Below are positions 1 through 4,812 of a stretch of DNA of 5,043 nt, piece after piece. Source of the stretch: Solirubrobacteraceae bacterium (GTDB lineage Bacteria > Actinomycetota > Thermoleophilia > Solirubrobacterales > Solirubrobacteraceae); assembly GCA_025935735.1 (NCBI GenBank), contig JAICUS010000457.1, positions 1 to 5,043 of the forward strand, given 5' to 3'. Below the pieces are notes generated by a model. That model ran no database searches and was not told the DNA's origin. It saw only the letters and a program-made list of their open reading frames with translations. The translations under genes and the position numbers were made by a program. Each line of letters opens with the position of its first letter. Positions within the stretch are counted from its first letter, which is position 1.

Positions 1-553
1 CGACCGCGGCGAGTTCCGGCTGGAGGCGCGGGCGACGATGAACGTGCTCGGCGACATCGACGGGCTGCCGCTCACGGCGTTCAACGACTCGGCGCTCTCG
101 CGCCACCCCGGCCACGGCCCGGCCGCGCTCGCCGTCGAGGTGGAGGACGAGGTGTTCGCCCGCTACACCGCGGACGCGCTGGTCATCGCCACGCCAACCG
201 GCTCGACCGCCTACTCGTTCGCCGCGGGCGGGCCGATCGTCTCCGCCCGCCACCGCGGCCTGCTGGTCACGCCCGTGGCGCCGCACGCCGCGTTCGACCG
301 GGCGGTGTTCCTGCACCCGGACGAGTCGCTGCGCGTGCACGTGCTCGACCGCTCGGCGCCGGTGCTGCTGGAGGCCGACGGCCAGCGCGCGTGCGAGCTG
401 CGCCAGGGCGACTGCCTGCAGTTCCGGGTGGCCGACGAGCCCGCGCACGTCGTGCGGCTGCACCAGCACGGCTTCTATGAGCGGGCGCGGGTGAAGCTGC
501 AGCTCACCGACTCCTCGGAGCTGGCGCCGGACGCCCACGCCGAGGTGAGGTGA
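1..553 (+). CDS. nadK: NAD kinase, C-terminal part (5' end outside window)
   Basis: NAD kinase phosphorylates NAD to NADP in the cytosol using ATP or polyphosphate. The reading frame is open from base 2, so the gene begins before the window; 183 residues are visible. The family signature ATPTGSTAYSFAAGG lies at visible residues 63-77 (bases 188-232) and is followed by GPIV and LLVTPVAPHA, the usual end of the nucleotide-binding region. The FNDSALSR segment at visible residues 27-34 corresponds to the conserved N-E/D nucleotide-contact motif, here N-D. The end KLQLTDSSEL resembles the tails of actinobacterial NAD kinases. The N-terminal domain with the GGDGT motif is not visible and cannot be checked. 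The ATG at 38 lies inside the conserved domain and is not the start. The stop TGA at 551-553 overlaps the next gene's GTG. Family assignment is firm; whether the enzyme is ATP- or polyphosphate-dependent cannot be seen. Confidence 0.93.
   Translation, partial: DRGEFRLEARATMNVLGDIDGLPLTAFNDSALSRHPGHGPAALAVEVEDEVFARYTADALVIATPTGSTAYSFAAGGPIVSARHRGLLVTPVAPHAAFDRAVFLHPDESLRVHVLDRSAPVLLEADGQRACELRQGDCLQFRVADEPAHVVRLHQHGFYERARVKLQLTDSSELAPDAHAEVR
542..547 (+). promoter_or_regulatory. Shine-Dalgarno site for the spermidine-synthase-like gene
   Basis: GAGGTG lies inside the last codons of the NAD kinase gene, two bases before the GTG at 550. The spacing is short, but together with the GTGA stop/start overlap it supports 550 as the start and suggests translational coupling to the kinase. 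The next in-frame alternative is a GTG at 604. Confidence 0.5.
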
Positions 554-1329
554 ACCGGCGCGGCCGCGAGCGGCGCTCGCGGCCGGCCCCGGCGCCCGTC
601 GAGGTGCGCACGCCCTACGCGCTGGCCGAGGTGATCGCCGACCCGCGGCGGCCCTCCTCGCGGCTGCTGCTGCTCGACGGCCGCGAGGCCGGCGAGGTGG
701 ACCTGGCCGACCCGCGCCGGCTGGGCTTCGCCTACATGCGCCGGATCGCCGACCTCGTGGACGCGTTCCGGCCGCCGGGCACGGCGATCGACGCGGTCCA
801 CGTGGGCGGCGGCGCGTTCGCGCTGGCCCGGTACATCGCCGCCACCCGGCCGCGCTCGCGCCAGGACGTGCTCGAGCTCGACCCGGGCGTGGTGGCGGTG
901 GCACGCGAGCACCTCGGGCTGCGGACCTCGCCCCGCCTGCGCGTGCGGGTGGGCGACGCGGCCGAGTCGCTGCGGGCGCGCCCGGACCGCTCGGCCGACC
1001 TGGTGATCGGCGACGCGTTCGACGGGCCGCACGTGCCGGAGCACCTCGCGGGCGCGGCGTTCGCCGCCGAGGTGGCGCGGGTGCTGCGCCCCGCGGGCGT
1101 GTACGCGCTCAACGAGATTGACGTGCCGCCCAACGACAACCTGCTGGCCCACGACGCGGTGCTGCGCGACGCGTTCGCCCACGTCGCCTGGGTCGGCCCG
1201 CCGGGCGTGCTGCGCGCCCGCGCGCCGGGCAACGTCGTCTTGCTGGCCGGCGCGGCGCCGCTGCCGCTGGCCGCGCTGCGGCGGGTCGCCGCGGCCGCGG
1301 TCCCCCGGGAGCAGGTGGCCGAGCGATAG
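550..1329 (+). CDS. Spermidine-synthase-fold protein (methyltransferase-like)
   Basis: A 259-residue protein with the Rossmann core of the spermine/spermidine synthase family. Visible motifs are a glycine-rich loop VHVGGGAFALARYI (residues 83-96), the acidic strand end VLELDPGVVAVA (107-118), GDA (135-137) and LVIGDAFDGPHVPEHL (151-166), whose Asp sits where the catalytic/binding Asp of true synthases lies. The protein differs from bona fide spermidine synthases: the loop reads GGGAF, not GGGDG, and there is no clear Y-x-EMLTH-type substrate gate, only FAYMRRIADLV (60-70). It resembles the short actinobacterial 'spermidine synthase-like' proteins, often annotated next to or fused with MFS proteins, whose reaction is unknown. 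The first 18 residues are basic and Pro/Ala-rich. The start is the GTG that overlaps the NAD kinase stop. An MFS gene follows after one base, so product export by that transporter is a possible link, but this is inference. Polyamine synthesis itself is doubtful. Confidence 0.8.
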   Translation: MNRRGRERRSRPAPAPVEVRTPYALAEVIADPRRPSSRLLLLDGREAGEVDLADPRRLGFAYMRRIADLVDAFRPPGTAIDAVHVGGGAFALARYIAATRPRSRQDVLELDPGVVAVAREHLGLRTSPRLRVRVGDAAESLRARPDRSADLVIGDAFDGPHVPEHLAGAAFAAEVARVLRPAGVYALNEIDVPPNDNLLAHDAVLRDAFAHVAWVGPPGVLRARAPGNVVLLAGAAPLPLAALRRVAAAAVPREQVAER

Positions 1330-1330
1330 C

Positions 1331-2902
1331 GTGGTCGGCACGCCGGAGCCACGCACCCACCGCAAGCAGCTCGCCCTGGCGGCCGCGATCATGGGCTCGT
1401 TCGTCGCGGGCCTGGACGCGACGGTGGTCAACGTCGCGCTGCCGGCGATCGGGCGCGACCTGGGCGGCGGGCTGGCCGGCCAGCAGTGGGTGTCCAACGC
1501 CTACCTGCTGACGCTCGGGTCGCTGATCCTGGTGGCGGGCTCGCTGGGCGACCTGTACGGCGAGCGGCGGGTGTTCTCGGTGGGCGTCGCGGGCTTCGGT
1601 GTGGTGTCTGTGCTGTGCGCGGTCGCGCCGAGCATCGGCGTGCTGATCGCCGGCCGGGCGCTGCAGGGCGTGTTCGGCGCGCTGCTGACCCCGAGCGCGC
1701 TCGCGGTGATCGTGTCGGCGTTCCCGCCGGACGAGCGCGGCGCGGCGATCGGCTCGTGGACCGCCTGGTCGGGGATCGCGTTCGTGGTCGGGCCGCTGGC
1801 CGGCGGCTGGCTGATCGACGTCGCCTCCTGGCGCTGGATCTTCGCGATCAACGTCCCGTTCGTGCTGGTCACGCTCGGGCTGGTCGCGATGGCGGTGCCG
1901 AAGAGCGCGGGGCGGCCGGGCGTGCACCTGGACTGGCTGGGGGCGCTGCTCAGCCTGCTCGGGCTCGCGGGACCGGTGCTGGCGCTCATCCGCCAGCCTG
2001 CGGCCGGCTGGGGGAGCCCCGAGGTGTGGGCGGTCGGGCTCGGCGGGCTGGCGCTGTTCGGCATCTTCCTGCTCCGCGAGGCGCGCACGCCGCACCCGAT
2101 GCTGCCGCTCGAGCTGTTCCGGAGACGCAACTTCGCCATCGGCAACCTCGAGACGTTCGTGATGTACGGCGGCATGGGCGCGCTGTTCTTCTTCATGACG
2201 CTGTTCCTGCAGCAGGTGGCGGGCTACGACGCGCTGCAGGCCGGGGTGGCCACGATGCCCACGACGATCGTGATGTTCGCGTTCTCCCGGCGCGCCGGCC
2301 GGCTGGCCGACCGCTACGGGCCGCGGGCGTTCATGGGCGGTGGGCCCCTGGTGGCCGCCGTCGGCCTGGGGCTGCTGCAGCGCGTGAGCGCCGACCTGAA
2401 CTACTGGACCGACCTGCTGCCCGGGCTGCTCGTGTTCTCCGTGGGGCTGACGTGCACCGTGACGCCGCTCACCGCGACGGTGCTGGCCGACGCCGACGAG
2501 CACAACGCGGGCATCGCCTCGGCGGTCAACAACGCGATCGCCCGCGTGGCGAGCCTGATGTGCGTGGCCGCGCTGGGCGCCGTGGTGGCGGCGCAGTTCA
2601 ACGCCGGCCTGGACGCGCGCCTACCGGGCGGCGACACGCCCGCGGTGCGGGAGGCGCGCACGCTGACGCTGGCCCGCGTCCCCGGCGTGCCCGCCGTCGA
2701 GCAGGCGTCGGTGGAGGCCTTCCACCTCGGCATCGGCATCGCCGCCGTGATGGTCGGCGCGGGCGGCGTCCTCGGGCTGATCGGCATCCGCAACCCGCGG
2801 CGCGAGGTCAAATGCGCCGACTGCGCCGAGGGCGCCCCGGGCGTGCAGGCGCCGCCGCTCGGGCGCCACGAGGTGACTAGCCCGCGGCCTGCGCGGCCGT
2901 GA
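1331..2902 (+). CDS. DHA2-family MFS transporter (14-helix drug/metabolite exporter)
   Basis: A 523-residue integral inner-membrane protein of the length usual for DHA2 drug:H+ antiporters with 14 helices. Motif D1 is seen as LDATVVNVALP (28-38), motif A in the helix 2-3 loop as GSLGDLYGERR (70-80), the helix 4 motif B region as AGRALQGVFGALLTPSA (107-123), motif C as GIAFVVGPLAGGW (148-160), and a second motif-A-like loop as RAGRLADRYG (321-330). These indicate proton-driven export of small hydrophobic or cationic compounds; the substrate cannot be read from sequence. The GTG at 1331 was chosen because it follows the upstream TAG by one base and leaves a short polar N-terminus before helix 1. 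The ATG at 1391 lies within helix 1. No good Shine-Dalgarno site sits at normal distance, so translation is probably coupled. The cytosolic tail carries a CADC pair (495-498) and then a Pro/Gly-rich end. The last 26 bases overlap the convergent gene on the other strand. Confidence 0.9.
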   Translation: MVGTPEPRTHRKQLALAAAIMGSFVAGLDATVVNVALPAIGRDLGGGLAGQQWVSNAYLLTLGSLILVAGSLGDLYGERRVFSVGVAGFGVVSVLCAVAPSIGVLIAGRALQGVFGALLTPSALAVIVSAFPPDERGAAIGSWTAWSGIAFVVGPLAGGWLIDVASWRWIFAINVPFVLVTLGLVAMAVPKSAGRPGVHLDWLGALLSLLGLAGPVLALIRQPAAGWGSPEVWAVGLGGLALFGIFLLREARTPHPMLPLELFRRRNFAIGNLETFVMYGGMGALFFFMTLFLQQVAGYDALQAGVATMPTTIVMFAFSRRAGRLADRYGPRAFMGGGPLVAAVGLGLLQRVSADLNYWTDLLPGLLVFSVGLTCTVTPLTATVLADADEHNAGIASAVNNAIARVASLMCVAALGAVVAAQFNAGLDARLPGGDTPAVREARTLTLARVPGVPAVEQASVEAFHLGIGIAAVMVGAGGVLGLIGIRNPRREVKCADCAEGAPGVQAPPLGRHEVTSPRPARP

Positions 2903-2910
2903 CCAGCCCG
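2873..2910. repeat. Imperfect 12-bp direct repeat over the two converging stop codons
   Basis: GTGACTAGCCCG at 2873-2884 and GTGACCAGCCCG at 2899-2910 match in 11 of 12 bases with a 26-base period. The first copy contains the stop of the minus-strand gene (CTA at 2877-2879) and the second contains the MFS stop (TGA at 2900-2902). The repeat is short and could be chance in such GC-rich sequence, or a small local duplication that created the gene overlap. Confidence 0.35.
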
Positions 2911-3239
2911 GAGAGCGTCATCACCAGCGCCAGGCTCGGCTCGGCGGCCGGGTTGCCCTCGGCCCAGCCGTCGACATAGGCGTGCACGCCGCCGTCGAGG
3001 TCGCTCCACAGCTCGCACGTGTCGCCGCCGGTGATGTTCGCCGGCGCGGGCGTGCGCTCGGGCAGGGCGAGGATCCCGGACGCGCGCACCGCCTCGGCCA
3101 GGCGCTCGACGCCGTCCGCGTCCAGCGCGGTCAGCGGCTCCCAGGCGTCGCCCTCGCCGAGCTCCACGCGCCCGTCGTCGTGCACGCGCATCCCGCTCGG
3201 CGGGTGGCCGCGGCCGTGGGTGCGGTAGCCGAGGACCAT
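2877..3239 (-). CDS. Small protein of unknown function, coupled to the metzincin-like gene
   Basis: A 120-residue soluble protein that I do not recognise. It has no signal peptide, no membrane segment and one cysteine (C75). Visible features are an N-terminal segment GYRTHGRGHPPSGMRVHDDG (residues 4-23) that looks like two strands joined by a glycine-rich turn, an amphipathic helix ADGVERLAEAVRASG (41-55), an acidic Trp-containing stretch ELWSDLDGG (76-84) before a strand, and a C-terminal helix. The strand-helix-strand layout recalls small protease inhibitors of the emfourin type, but this is a layout resemblance only, and emfourin acts on M4 peptidases, a different group from the neighbour. 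The start ATG (3237-3239) shares one base with the neighbour's stop (TGATG on the minus strand). There is no Shine-Dalgarno site before it, so it is probably made by termination-reinitiation in proportion to the large protein. The frame stays open further upstream, but that part is a shadow of the neighbour. The product is likely a functional partner of the large protein. Confidence 0.8.
   Translation of the reverse strand: MVLGYRTHGRGHPPSGMRVHDDGRVELGEGDAWEPLTALDADGVERLAEAVRASGILALPERTPAPANITGGDTCELWSDLDGGVHAYVDGWAEGNPAAEPSLALVMTLSGLVTAAQAAG
2883..2901. terminator. Possible bidirectional hairpin between convergent genes
   Basis: CGGCC (2885-2889) and GGCCG (2895-2899) form a 5-bp GC stem with a 5-base loop, extendable by one G-T wobble and one C-G pair to 7 bp. 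It lies exactly where the two transcription units meet and inside the coding ends of both. No T-run follows on either strand, so it is not a canonical intrinsic terminator. Such stems also arise by chance at this base composition. Confidence 0.25.
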
Positions 3240-4753
3240 CAGACGGCCACGGTGTCGGGCTGGGCGACGTCCGGGCCGATCAGGTCCGGGATGCCGGCCT
3301 TCGGCGCGAGGCCCGCGCCGCCGTAGTGCCAGGCCTGCGGGGCGGTGACGTTGGTCAGCGCCTCGTGGAAGGTGGCGTAGTGCTGCGGGCGGACGACGTT
3401 GCCCACGGACATGATGTTGTCGTTGTTCTCGGACACCGCGGGCGGGACGCCGTTGCCCATCGCCGCGGCGAGGCCGGAGTGGGCCACCGGGGCGCCGATG
3501 TTGCCCGGCGTGCCCGCGCCCGGCGCGAAGCCGCCGGTGGGCGAGGCGTACTCGTCGTCGAGGCCGAACATGTGCCCGGTCTCGTGCATCATCGTCACCT
3601 GGGCGCGGCCGTCGCCCACCATGATGTCCACGCGCCGCCACTCGGCGTCCGCGGTCGCGCCGTCGTCGCCCGCGGACTCCACGGCGATCCGGTAGTTGGC
3701 GATCTCCTGGCCCTGGGTGCGCAGGTAGTTGGCCACGTTCTGCGCGCGCTCGAGGGCGATCCGCCGGTTGTCCTCGTGGCTGCCCGTCGCGCTGGCGTGG
3801 CCGGTGATCGTCACCGGCGCGCCGCCGGTCGGCGTGCCGCGCTGGAAGTCGACGATGAACTTGTTCAGGAACGTCGGCCCGGGGTCGCCGTTGCCCTGCT
3901 GGCCCGAGCCCGTGCCCTGGGCGACGGTCGTGCCGCCCTCGGGGTAGACGAGCCGGTAGTTGAGGAAGTCGGTCGTCCCCTCCAGGCCGGAGGACGTGAA
4001 CGTGCCCGTGTTGCCGGTCGGGCTGCCGGTGGAGTTGACCACGGCGCCCGGGCCGGCGCTCGAGTGCTCGGGCACCTTGAAGATCGTCGCCGTGCAGTGG
4101 TCGTTGGCCAGCCCGCCCAGGTGGACCTGGAGGTCGACTTCCACGTCGGAGTACACGTCGTCCCAGGTGTTGTTGACGAAGTAGTGGCGGCTGCCCCAGG
4201 CCTGCTCGGCCATCTGCGCGTAGCGCGCGCGGAAGCCCTCGGCGTCCGTCCAGTGCCAGTTGTCGTTGACCTCCCGGACGCGGTCGGGGACGTTGGCGAT
4301 CGCCATCACGCGCGCCGCGGCGGTGGCGAAGCTGGCGTTGGCCGGCGTGACGATGCCGGTCGTCGGGTCGATGGTGAGCCCGTCGACGGCGTTGATCCCC
4401 ACCCGCAGCGTGATCTTCAGCGTCTGCCGCGACGGCTCGTACATCGCGTTGAAGCCGCCGATGCCCGTCGCGGAGGTCATGTCGAGCCCGGCCGCGGCGG
4501 GCAGCGGGCCCTGGCTGAGGAACGCCTCGCGCGCCGGGTCGCCCTGGCGCATCACCTGCGCGACCTGCCGCGCCACCCAGGCGTTGCCCTGCGAGCGCTG
4601 GAGCCCGAGCACCGCCTGCCGGCGCAGCCCCGCCGCCGACGAGTGCCGCGGAAGGCCCTCGACCGCCGTCTGCGCGCCCTCCGGCGTCGCCCCGGCCGGC
4701 TCGGCCACGGCGGGAGAGGGCTGCGGCTCGGGCTCGGTCTGTGGGACGCGCAT
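3239..4753 (-). CDS. Multidomain OmpA-like / metzincin-like zinc peptidase with eCIS-type N-terminal motif
   Basis: A 504-residue protein without a signal peptide. Residues 1-45 are Pro/Glu/Ala-rich and probably disordered. LQRSQGNAWVAR (51-62) matches the LQR-x-x-GN-x-x-V-x-R motif common near the N-terminus of proteins associated with extracellular contractile injection systems (DUF4157/eCIS-core type). Residues 101-230 form a strand/helix domain (YEPSRQTLKITLRV, then W169, an AWG near 185 and YSDVEVDLQVHL) of a kind I associate with the same proteins. Gly/Ser/Thr-rich linkers occupy 231-290. Residues 295-380 resemble the OmpA C-terminal fold: VTITGHASATGS, then N329, R336-A337, V340, YL343-344 and RRVDIMV. 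The usual Asp of GHxD is Ser321. HETGHMFGLDD (390-400) fits the metzincin zinc site HExxHxxGxxD, with H390, H394 and D400 as ligands and E391 as base, and NIMS (446-449) is a fitting Met-turn. The likely role is a cytosolic cargo or effector peptidase, which is inference; substrate unknown. Start: ATG at 4751-4753, with a promoter-like element just upstream. Confidence 0.85.
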   Translation of the reverse strand: MRVPQTEPEPQPSPAVAEPAGATPEGAQTAVEGLPRHSSAAGLRRQAVLGLQRSQGNAWVARQVAQVMRQGDPAREAFLSQGPLPAAAGLDMTSATGIGGFNAMYEPSRQTLKITLRVGINAVDGLTIDPTTGIVTPANASFATAAARVMAIANVPDRVREVNDNWHWTDAEGFRARYAQMAEQAWGSRHYFVNNTWDDVYSDVEVDLQVHLGGLANDHCTATIFKVPEHSSAGPGAVVNSTGSPTGNTGTFTSSGLEGTTDFLNYRLVYPEGGTTVAQGTGSGQQGNGDPGPTFLNKFIVDFQRGTPTGGAPVTITGHASATGSHEDNRRIALERAQNVANYLRTQGQEIANYRIAVESAGDDGATADAEWRRVDIMVGDGRAQVTMMHETGHMFGLDDEYASPTGGFAPGAGTPGNIGAPVAHSGLAAAMGNGVPPAVSENNDNIMSVGNVVRPQHYATFHEALTNVTAPQAWHYGGAGLAPKAGIPDLIGPDVAQPDTVAV

Positions 4754-4788: not shown

Positions 4789-4812
4789 CGGGCGAACGGG
4801 CAGCAATGCGTG

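Follow-up and report, generated by a model that had tools for sequence, protein, structure and literature searches.

Toxins associated with extracellular contractile injection systems (eCIS), known as EATs, can have a DUF4157 domain at the N-terminus and a toxin domain at the C-terminus (PMC8213781); 46 predicted EATs are annotated as proteases or peptidases, and closeness to an eCIS operon is one feature of a cargo predictor (PMC11297309). Immunity genes could not be identified beside most of the verified EATs, which are antibacterial (PMC8213781). A second contractile machine, the type VI secretion system (T6SS), has an HExxH effector with an adjacent partner: VgrG2b (Tpe), with a DUF4157-type peptidase, is toxic in the periplasm, and its immunity protein PA0261 (Tpi) is periplasmic, a lipoprotein or membrane-anchored, depending on the species (PMC6899460). 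In the protealysin–emfourin operon, an intracellular metalloprotease of the thermolysin type (M4) is encoded together with a small inhibitor (PMC9505478). The present work concerns two genes of a 5043-nucleotide stretch of Solirubrobacteraceae bacterium DNA (contig JAICUS010000457.1; the whole stretch is hereinafter called the window), one encoding a peptidase and the other, directly downstream, a small partner protein (Table 1). It is considered probable, while well short of certain, that they form a bicistron for an eCIS-delivered metzincin-type effector and its cognate inhibitor or immunity protein. The window peptidase resembles EATs in that its relatives occur in or near eCIS clusters or are fused to eCIS_core and in that its flexible N-terminus has no Sec signal, whereas it differs in the absence of DUF4157, in an inserted OmpA-like domain and in the strictly adjacent partner gene. 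The VgrG2b–PA0261 pair may be regarded as the closest experimental parallel, in manner of working and not in membership: the window peptidase is not of the DUF4157 type, judging from Pfam, the partner is not the same protein, and, whereas Tpi-type partners are located in the envelope, partners of the window's clade have no export-like start.

In the first-pass annotation, the connection with eCIS had been drawn from the resemblance of an N-terminal motif; for the family, although not for the window's own genome, it has now become one of genomic linkage. The contig scan gave 27 homologue loci, each from its own genome, in Chloroflexi/Anaerolineae, Solirubrobacter, Myxococcota, Deinococcales, cyanobacteria, proteobacteria, Oligoflexia, Chlorobiaceae and Bacteroidetes, and, going by record titles, the peptidase is spread over nine phylum-level groups; Solirubrobacter phytolaccae and S. 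soli are carriers with a species name. eCIS_core, which was searched for in these 27 carrier genomes, was found in all of them versus 0 of 14 controls; the eCIS cap protein Pvc16_N was found in 26 of the 27 versus 0 of 14, and the sheath C-terminal domain in 25 of the 27 (27 of 29 with genomes G149 and G184, added later) versus 3 of 14. Pvc16_N was used as the independent marker, because in genomes with fused genes the eCIS_core match is partly the peptidase protein itself. In 11 of the 27 genomes (G008, G013–G021 and G023), peptidase and eCIS_core were encoded in a single open frame; in 18 of 27, an eCIS_core match lay no further than 10 kb from the peptidase; and 10 of 29 genomes had a sheath gene on the same contig at a distance of up to 30 kb. 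Thus, the absence of eCIS genes from genomes carrying homologues, named at first pass as the outcome that would speak against the link, was not what these genomes revealed, and in two Chloroflexota genomes (G436 and G727) the peptidases lay among eCIS genes.

Co-occurrence was also assessed in two larger draws of genomes. In Thermoleophilia, Pvc16_N was present in 26 of 399 genomes and the full-length peptidase in three, all inside the 26 (chance of such an overlap 2.5 × 10−4, or 0.004 without the centre genome); 34 of the 399 genomes matched A1, a 30-row alignment of the peptidase family, at E ≤ 0.001, and apart from the three counted as full-length, these matches were short, mainly to the OmpA or HExxH region. 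In Anaerolineae, Pvc16_N was present in 127 of 396 genomes and the peptidase (E ≤ 1 × 10−20) in six, five of them positive for Pvc16_N. It should be noted that the centres of the two draws, G010 and G003, respectively, had been chosen as carriers; without them, two of two carriers fell among the 25 Pvc16_N genomes of 398, and four of five among the 126 of 395.

In both of these Chloroflexota genomes, no more than about ten genes separate the peptidase from an eCIS operon. In G436 (contig C9), which gave the best-scoring Anaerolineae match for the peptidase, the order was peptidase (with the tail motif LQQAHGNAFV), partner, eCIS_core (LQQERGNAYV), Pvc16_N, sheath, tube, eCIS_core, CIS_tube, Phage_base_V/GPD (spike/hub) and gp25, at which the stretch read ended. 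In G727 (contig C6), the tube, sheath, Pvc16_N, eCIS_core (LQQRVGNRAV) and DUF922 (LQQQLGNRAV) genes were followed by an open reading frame (ORF) for a 2688-aa eCIS_core protein and by two peptidase–partner pairs. This ORF (L099:5953–14019), situated between the eCIS genes and the pairs, contained two eCIS_core stretches and a weak match to the effector protein Peptidase_M91. The position of the G436 pair directly upstream of eCIS_core and the structural genes would also suit a processing enzyme of the producer, which matures cargo of the eCIS such as DUF4157 proteins or aids the release of particles, with the partner as a timing inhibitor, and a cytosolic-looking partner, as in the window and most of the inspected Chloroflexota loci, would fit such control within the producer; the protealysin–emfourin operon offers a precedent, its metalloprotease being intracellular and encoded together with the inhibitor (PMC9505478). 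Meanwhile, the eCIS_core fusions in 11 of 27 genomes resemble the cargo architecture of EATs (PMC8213781), up to four partner matches in a single genome (G021) suggest diversifying cargo, and an enzyme acting in the cytosol fits poorly with export-like or lipoprotein-like partners. A role in processing is therefore considered unlikely, and the toxin is favoured because of the dedicated partner gene.

The 504-aa ORF noted at first pass was borne out as a real gene; 75 proteins matched its product at E ≤ 0.001 (family set P0001–P0076, where P0001 is the window protein) and its cluster at 90% identity (P0002) comprised 30 sequences; homologues P0010 and P0035 (Chloroflexi bacterium) had identities of 77% and 55%, respectively. 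The motif HExGHxxGLxDxY was found in 75 of the 76 proteins and [IL]MSxG, the Met-turn, in 74, mostly 55–57 residues downstream of the zinc motif, and the invariant columns of A1 include H390, E391, H394, G397, D400, Y402, M448, S449, G451 and Y459. The positions given earlier for HETGHMFGLDD (3554–3586, residues 390–400) and for the Met of NIMS (3410–3412, residue 448) proved exact. Judging from the sequence, the zinc site, which has an Asp at the third-ligand position, is of the metzincin type, with H390, H394 and probably D400 as ligands. In a one-by-one Pfam scan of 30 members (E ≤ 0.1), M7 was matched by 22, and M6, M12B and M12 by nine each, while the best-matching solved peptidase of the family profile was snapalysin (E-value = 6.5 × 10−5 over 31 positions). 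Hence, residues 383–465, for which placement in a non-peptidase family had been raised as a counter-test, gave profile matches over the zinc site to peptidases (M7, M6, M12 and snapalysin). The window protein itself stayed under the cut-off of every Pfam peptidase family (M7, PF02031: 13.4 bits versus 25) and had no eCIS_core/DUF4157 (PF13699) match in Pfam at E ≤ 1. Snapalysin (peptidase M7; PDB 1c7k and 4hx3) has a zinc site of the same HExxHxxGxxD type, whereas its chain of 132 aa contains neither an OmpA domain nor a tail.

An OmpA-like domain (PF00691) was detected in the window peptidase above the curated cut-off (E-value = 3.4 × 10−9) and was OmpA-like by fold as well; this domain and the overlapping downstream gene at 2877–3239 were both overlooked in the first-pass annotation. 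It sits immediately ahead of the active-site helix and, from the alignment, is an insertion into the peptidase, because natural paralogues do without it (L066:2259–3464, L067:2653–3735 and L068:287–1711). The OmpA-less paralogue in L067, from the Solirubrobacter soli genome, bears a LQRSAGNAAVAR tail; after it comes a second LQRSAGNAAVAR protein, which had no match in Pfam. The AlphaFold2 model of the peptidase had a pLDDT (predicted local distance difference test) of 87, mostly above 90 over residues 80–256 and with block means of 40–70 over residues 1–70. An Asp and an Arg form the diaminopimelate (DAP)-binding, i.e., peptidoglycan-binding, pair of OmpA-like domains (PMC5974059); in the window domain, the Arg of the RA motif is retained and the Asp is replaced by Ser, and a pattern search of the 76 proteins found HTD at this site in none of the 60 that were readable (16 were not read). 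The peptidase could in principle be a tether or remodelling factor that attaches the particle to the cell wall through a peptidoglycan-binding OmpA-like domain, the peptidase part being accessory; with the Asp exchanged, no visible signal peptide and active-site residues invariant in A1, this is considered very improbable.

The TGA codon of the peptidase gene overlaps the ATG codon of the partner gene, and the same overlap occurs in G436 (TGATG) and in the first pair of G727 (TAATG), the second pair of G727 having none. The partner profile was built from 14 sequences, i.e., the window's and 13 picked downstream of peptidases, of which 11 came from the 27 contig-scan loci. Partner relatives stood at the peptidase in 15 of these loci, 11 of them profile sources, so that the finds there are partly by construction and the independent part is the near absence of the partner elsewhere in carrier genomes; at three loci (L013, L014 and L016), the contig stops at the peptidase gene. 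Genome-wide, 23 partner matches were found in 18 of 32 carrier genomes, and 22 of them followed a family peptidase on its own strand at a distance of no more than 1.2 kb. The sole exception (G021:C668, 3487–3822) had no family peptidase listed beside it and belongs to a genome with partner matches at three peptidase-bearing contigs. Within carrier genomes, the partner is found almost exclusively with this family of peptidases, and the pair occurs in six named groups: Chloroflexota, Actinomycetota, Myxococcota, Deinococcales, Cyanobacteria and Oligoflexia. All five diderm partners inspected by eye (L007, L008, L009, L015 and L021) had hydrophobic or lipobox-like starts; among 50 partner homologues, the lipobox pattern was found in six, and about nine more had a hydrophobic start ending in Cys that the pattern missed, and one of the two G727 partners had a lipobox-like start. 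The partner of a Deinococcales metagenome-assembled genome (MAG; L008:11366–12241) apparently contained the domain twice, preceded by a signal-like N-terminus, and a 663-aa metagenomic ORF (P0076) consisted of a family peptidase continuing into a lipoprotein-like segment that by eye resembles the partner, either as a fusion or through sequencing read-through.

The model of the partner (pLDDT 96) had Mago nashi as its nearest fold, with 16% identity, and the partner is thus predicted to have the Mago nashi fold. Mago nashi is a eukaryotic protein of the exon junction complex that works by protein–protein binding, and its family was not among the profile matches of 12 partner members. Emfourin (PF20242) was matched by 0 of the 12 members at E ≤ 10, and hhalign of the partner against emfourin (four sequences) gave 46%; DUF6438 (PF20033) was matched by three of the 12 (best E-value = 0.0012), the window's partner not being among them, and hhalign (five sequences) gave 85%. 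A single protein of genome G015 (C1:5271094–5271366; L077 and L086) matched both Emfourin (4 × 10−21) and DUF6438 (4.5 × 10−4), which suggests that these two Pfam families are related. The partner could instead be a loading chaperone or adaptor of the peptidase, neither inhibitor nor immunity protein, since strict adjacency and a stop–start overlap are equally typical of effector chaperones and the nearest fold acts through protein–protein binding. On the other hand, several partners start with lipobox-like or hydrophobic stretches, and export is not what would be expected of a cytosolic chaperone; moreover, the profiles of DUF6438 and, only weakly, of emfourin are remotely similar to that of the partner, which points to inhibitors of metalloproteases; we give this alternative little credence, about as much as the processing role.

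The tail of the peptidase family varies in length and sequence, whereas the core of its motif recurs. Of the 68 proteins whose N-terminus is of sufficient length, 36 had the strict form LQ[RQ]..GN..V before the folded part; of the other 32, the relaxed form GNxx[VLIFM] was present in 21 and neither form in 11. Among 2657 ORFs of 93 loci, each picked for a match to the peptidase, eCIS_core or another family searched here, LQ[RQ]..GN..[VLIF] occurred in eight versus 0.12 in shuffles, and seven of the eight were peptidases of this family. As to the motif that the first-pass annotation had placed from 4562, LQRSQGNAWVAR is indeed present, whereas that start runs two codons too far, the true span being 4568–4603. 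As regards the accompanying statement that the motif is frequent in eCIS-encoded proteins, it is common to different proteins of eCIS loci, namely one eCIS_core protein each of G436 and G727 and the DUF922 protein of G727, and it is not universal: it was found in 0 of 39 DUF4157-like ORFs (HExxH pattern) of the first loci. The DUF922 protein (L099:4923–5753), with its LQQQLGNRAV tail and its location inside the eCIS locus, may represent a second tagged cargo family. Ten of the 11 peptidases encoded away from eCIS genes had a strict or relaxed LQ..GN-type motif (the exception being G002) versus 0 of 13 inspected homologues linked or fused to eCIS_core; because of this distribution, the tail motif and eCIS_core look like alternatives.

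Taken together, the peptidase, whose N-terminus on inspection has no visible hydrophobic stretch, in agreement with the absence of a signal peptide reported earlier, would most likely be addressed by its flexible LQxxxGN tail for packing into an eCIS particle in the cytosol, the tail replacing the eCIS_core domain that other bacteria fuse to the peptidase. The partner would be made as the enzyme emerges, because it starts on the peptidase stop codon, and would most likely cap the active site until the peptidase is packed and then protect kin after delivery. After contraction, the peptidase would be freed in the target cell and cleave a protein there; the site of action may be the cell envelope of competing bacteria, because the partners of diderm relatives are exported or lipoprotein-like. 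Several relatives from Solirubrobacter and Chloroflexota encode the pair at a distance from the eCIS cluster, apparently as cargo in trans, and the window's host is likely to do the same.

Several observations weigh against delivery of the peptidase by eCIS as an effector guarded by its partner. The Pfam scan found no eCIS gene among the genes of the window, in line with the earlier statement that sheath, tube, baseplate and ATPase genes are absent from it, and the peptidase lay away from eCIS genes in 11 of 29 genomes (G001–G006, G010–G012, G149 and G184), a set in which several contigs are short and G149 and G184 were judged from Pvc16_N and sheath only; the window's own copy may likewise be unlinked to eCIS. 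One carrier MAG (G001), the sixth Anaerolineae carrier mentioned above, had eCIS_core and neither Pvc16_N nor the sheath. The window and the unlinked genomes would fit an ordinary cytosolic metallopeptidase with a tail that merely resembles eCIS proteins, whereas co-occurrence across genomes, fusions and clusters argue against such a coincidence and G436 and G727 contradict it for the family, which leaves it scarcely credible. The absence of the tail motif from the 39 DUF4157-like ORFs, from the 13 linked or fused homologues and from both G727 peptidases means that LQxxxGN is not a general eCIS tag. No partner match was found in 14 of the 32 carrier genomes, mostly those with eCIS_core-fused (Betaproteobacteria) or distant (Bacteroidota and Chlorobiaceae) versions, and two of these 14 (G022 and G801) had adjacent partner matches with local profiles. 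In the clade of the window's 120-aa partner, neither a lipobox (by pattern) nor a hydrophobic start (by inspection) was found; the missing export-like start can mean that the cytosol is guarded during packing, and it is a weak point for an envelope target. The loss of the peptidoglycan-binding Asp weakens the idea of anchoring in the envelope, and the matches listed in the fold search of the whole peptidase model were OmpA-type structures, not informative on the peptidase part. It should also be noted that the family, motifs, insertion, adjacency, overlap and eCIS co-occurrence and clustering were read directly from the data, and from these we infer inhibition, toxicity, loading, target and delivery by eCIS.

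Table 1. Coordinates of the peptidase–partner locus in the window.
Feature	Position	Strand	Remarks
Peptidase gene	3239..4753	-	504 aa, ATG start; metzincin-type with inserted OmpA-like domain
N-terminal tail, residues 1-72	4538..4753	-	Low model confidence, weak helices; candidate eCIS loading tag
LQRSQGNAWVAR motif, residues 51-62	4568..4603	-	Also in two eCIS_core proteins and the DUF922 protein of eCIS loci
N-terminal part of discontinuous peptidase domain, residues 80-256	3986..4516	-	AlphaFold2 model; alignment to OmpA-less paralogues
OmpA-like insertion in peptidase, residues 262-381	3611..3970	-	Asp of HTD motif replaced by Ser
Zinc site HETGHMFGLDDEY, residues 390-402 (H390, E391, H394, D400)	3548..3586	-	Columns invariant in A1
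Met-turn IMSVG, residues 447-451	3401..3415	-	M448, S449 and G451 invariant in A1
TGATG stop/start overlap (one base), peptidase to partner	3237..3241	-	Sequence
Partner gene, 120 aa, putative inhibitor/immunity protein, predicted Mago nashi-like fold	2877..3239	-	Profile and model

The other genes of the window were identified by Pfam as a methyltransferase (550–1329, plus strand), an NAD kinase (C-terminus only), an MFS transporter and a PDZ-domain protein (end only). Among the 120 methyltransferase relatives listed, the five that bear an organism name are Solirubrobacter, at 70–77% identity, and the window most likely derives from a Solirubrobacter-like actinobacterium. The 3′ ends of the partner gene (minus strand) and the MFS transporter ORF (plus strand) overlap by 26 bases (2877–2902). 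An in-frame ATT at position 4807, with GGGAGGAG five bases upstream, could serve as an alternative start and lengthen the peptidase tail by 18 residues.

A literature search, which did not cover preprints or most subscription articles, found no paper on eCIS, a metallopeptidase and OmpA together and none on the LQxxxGN motif. The insertion, the dedicated partner and the Mago-like fold would constitute a new variation on effector–immunity pairs for eCIS. The family offers a portable two-gene effector–partner module, whose links to eCIS are fusions, shared clusters and co-occurrence, and it opens two questions to testing: which short tag directs the loading of cargo into the eCIS of actinobacteria and Chloroflexota, and how a producer withstands the peptidase effector that it makes. 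A broader and more tentative proposal, which we hold to be possible but doubtful, is that there is a class of trans-encoded eCIS cargo addressed by a short LQxxxGN tag at the N-terminus, which some eCIS_core proteins also have, and that the founding member of this class is an OmpA-inserted metzincin guarded by a Mago-fold inhibitor. If this were true, the fold of a core eukaryotic messenger ribonucleoprotein (mRNP) protein would be an ancient fold of protease inhibitors in bacteria, and a widespread immunity gene would be available for eCIS effectors, for many of which none has been reported.

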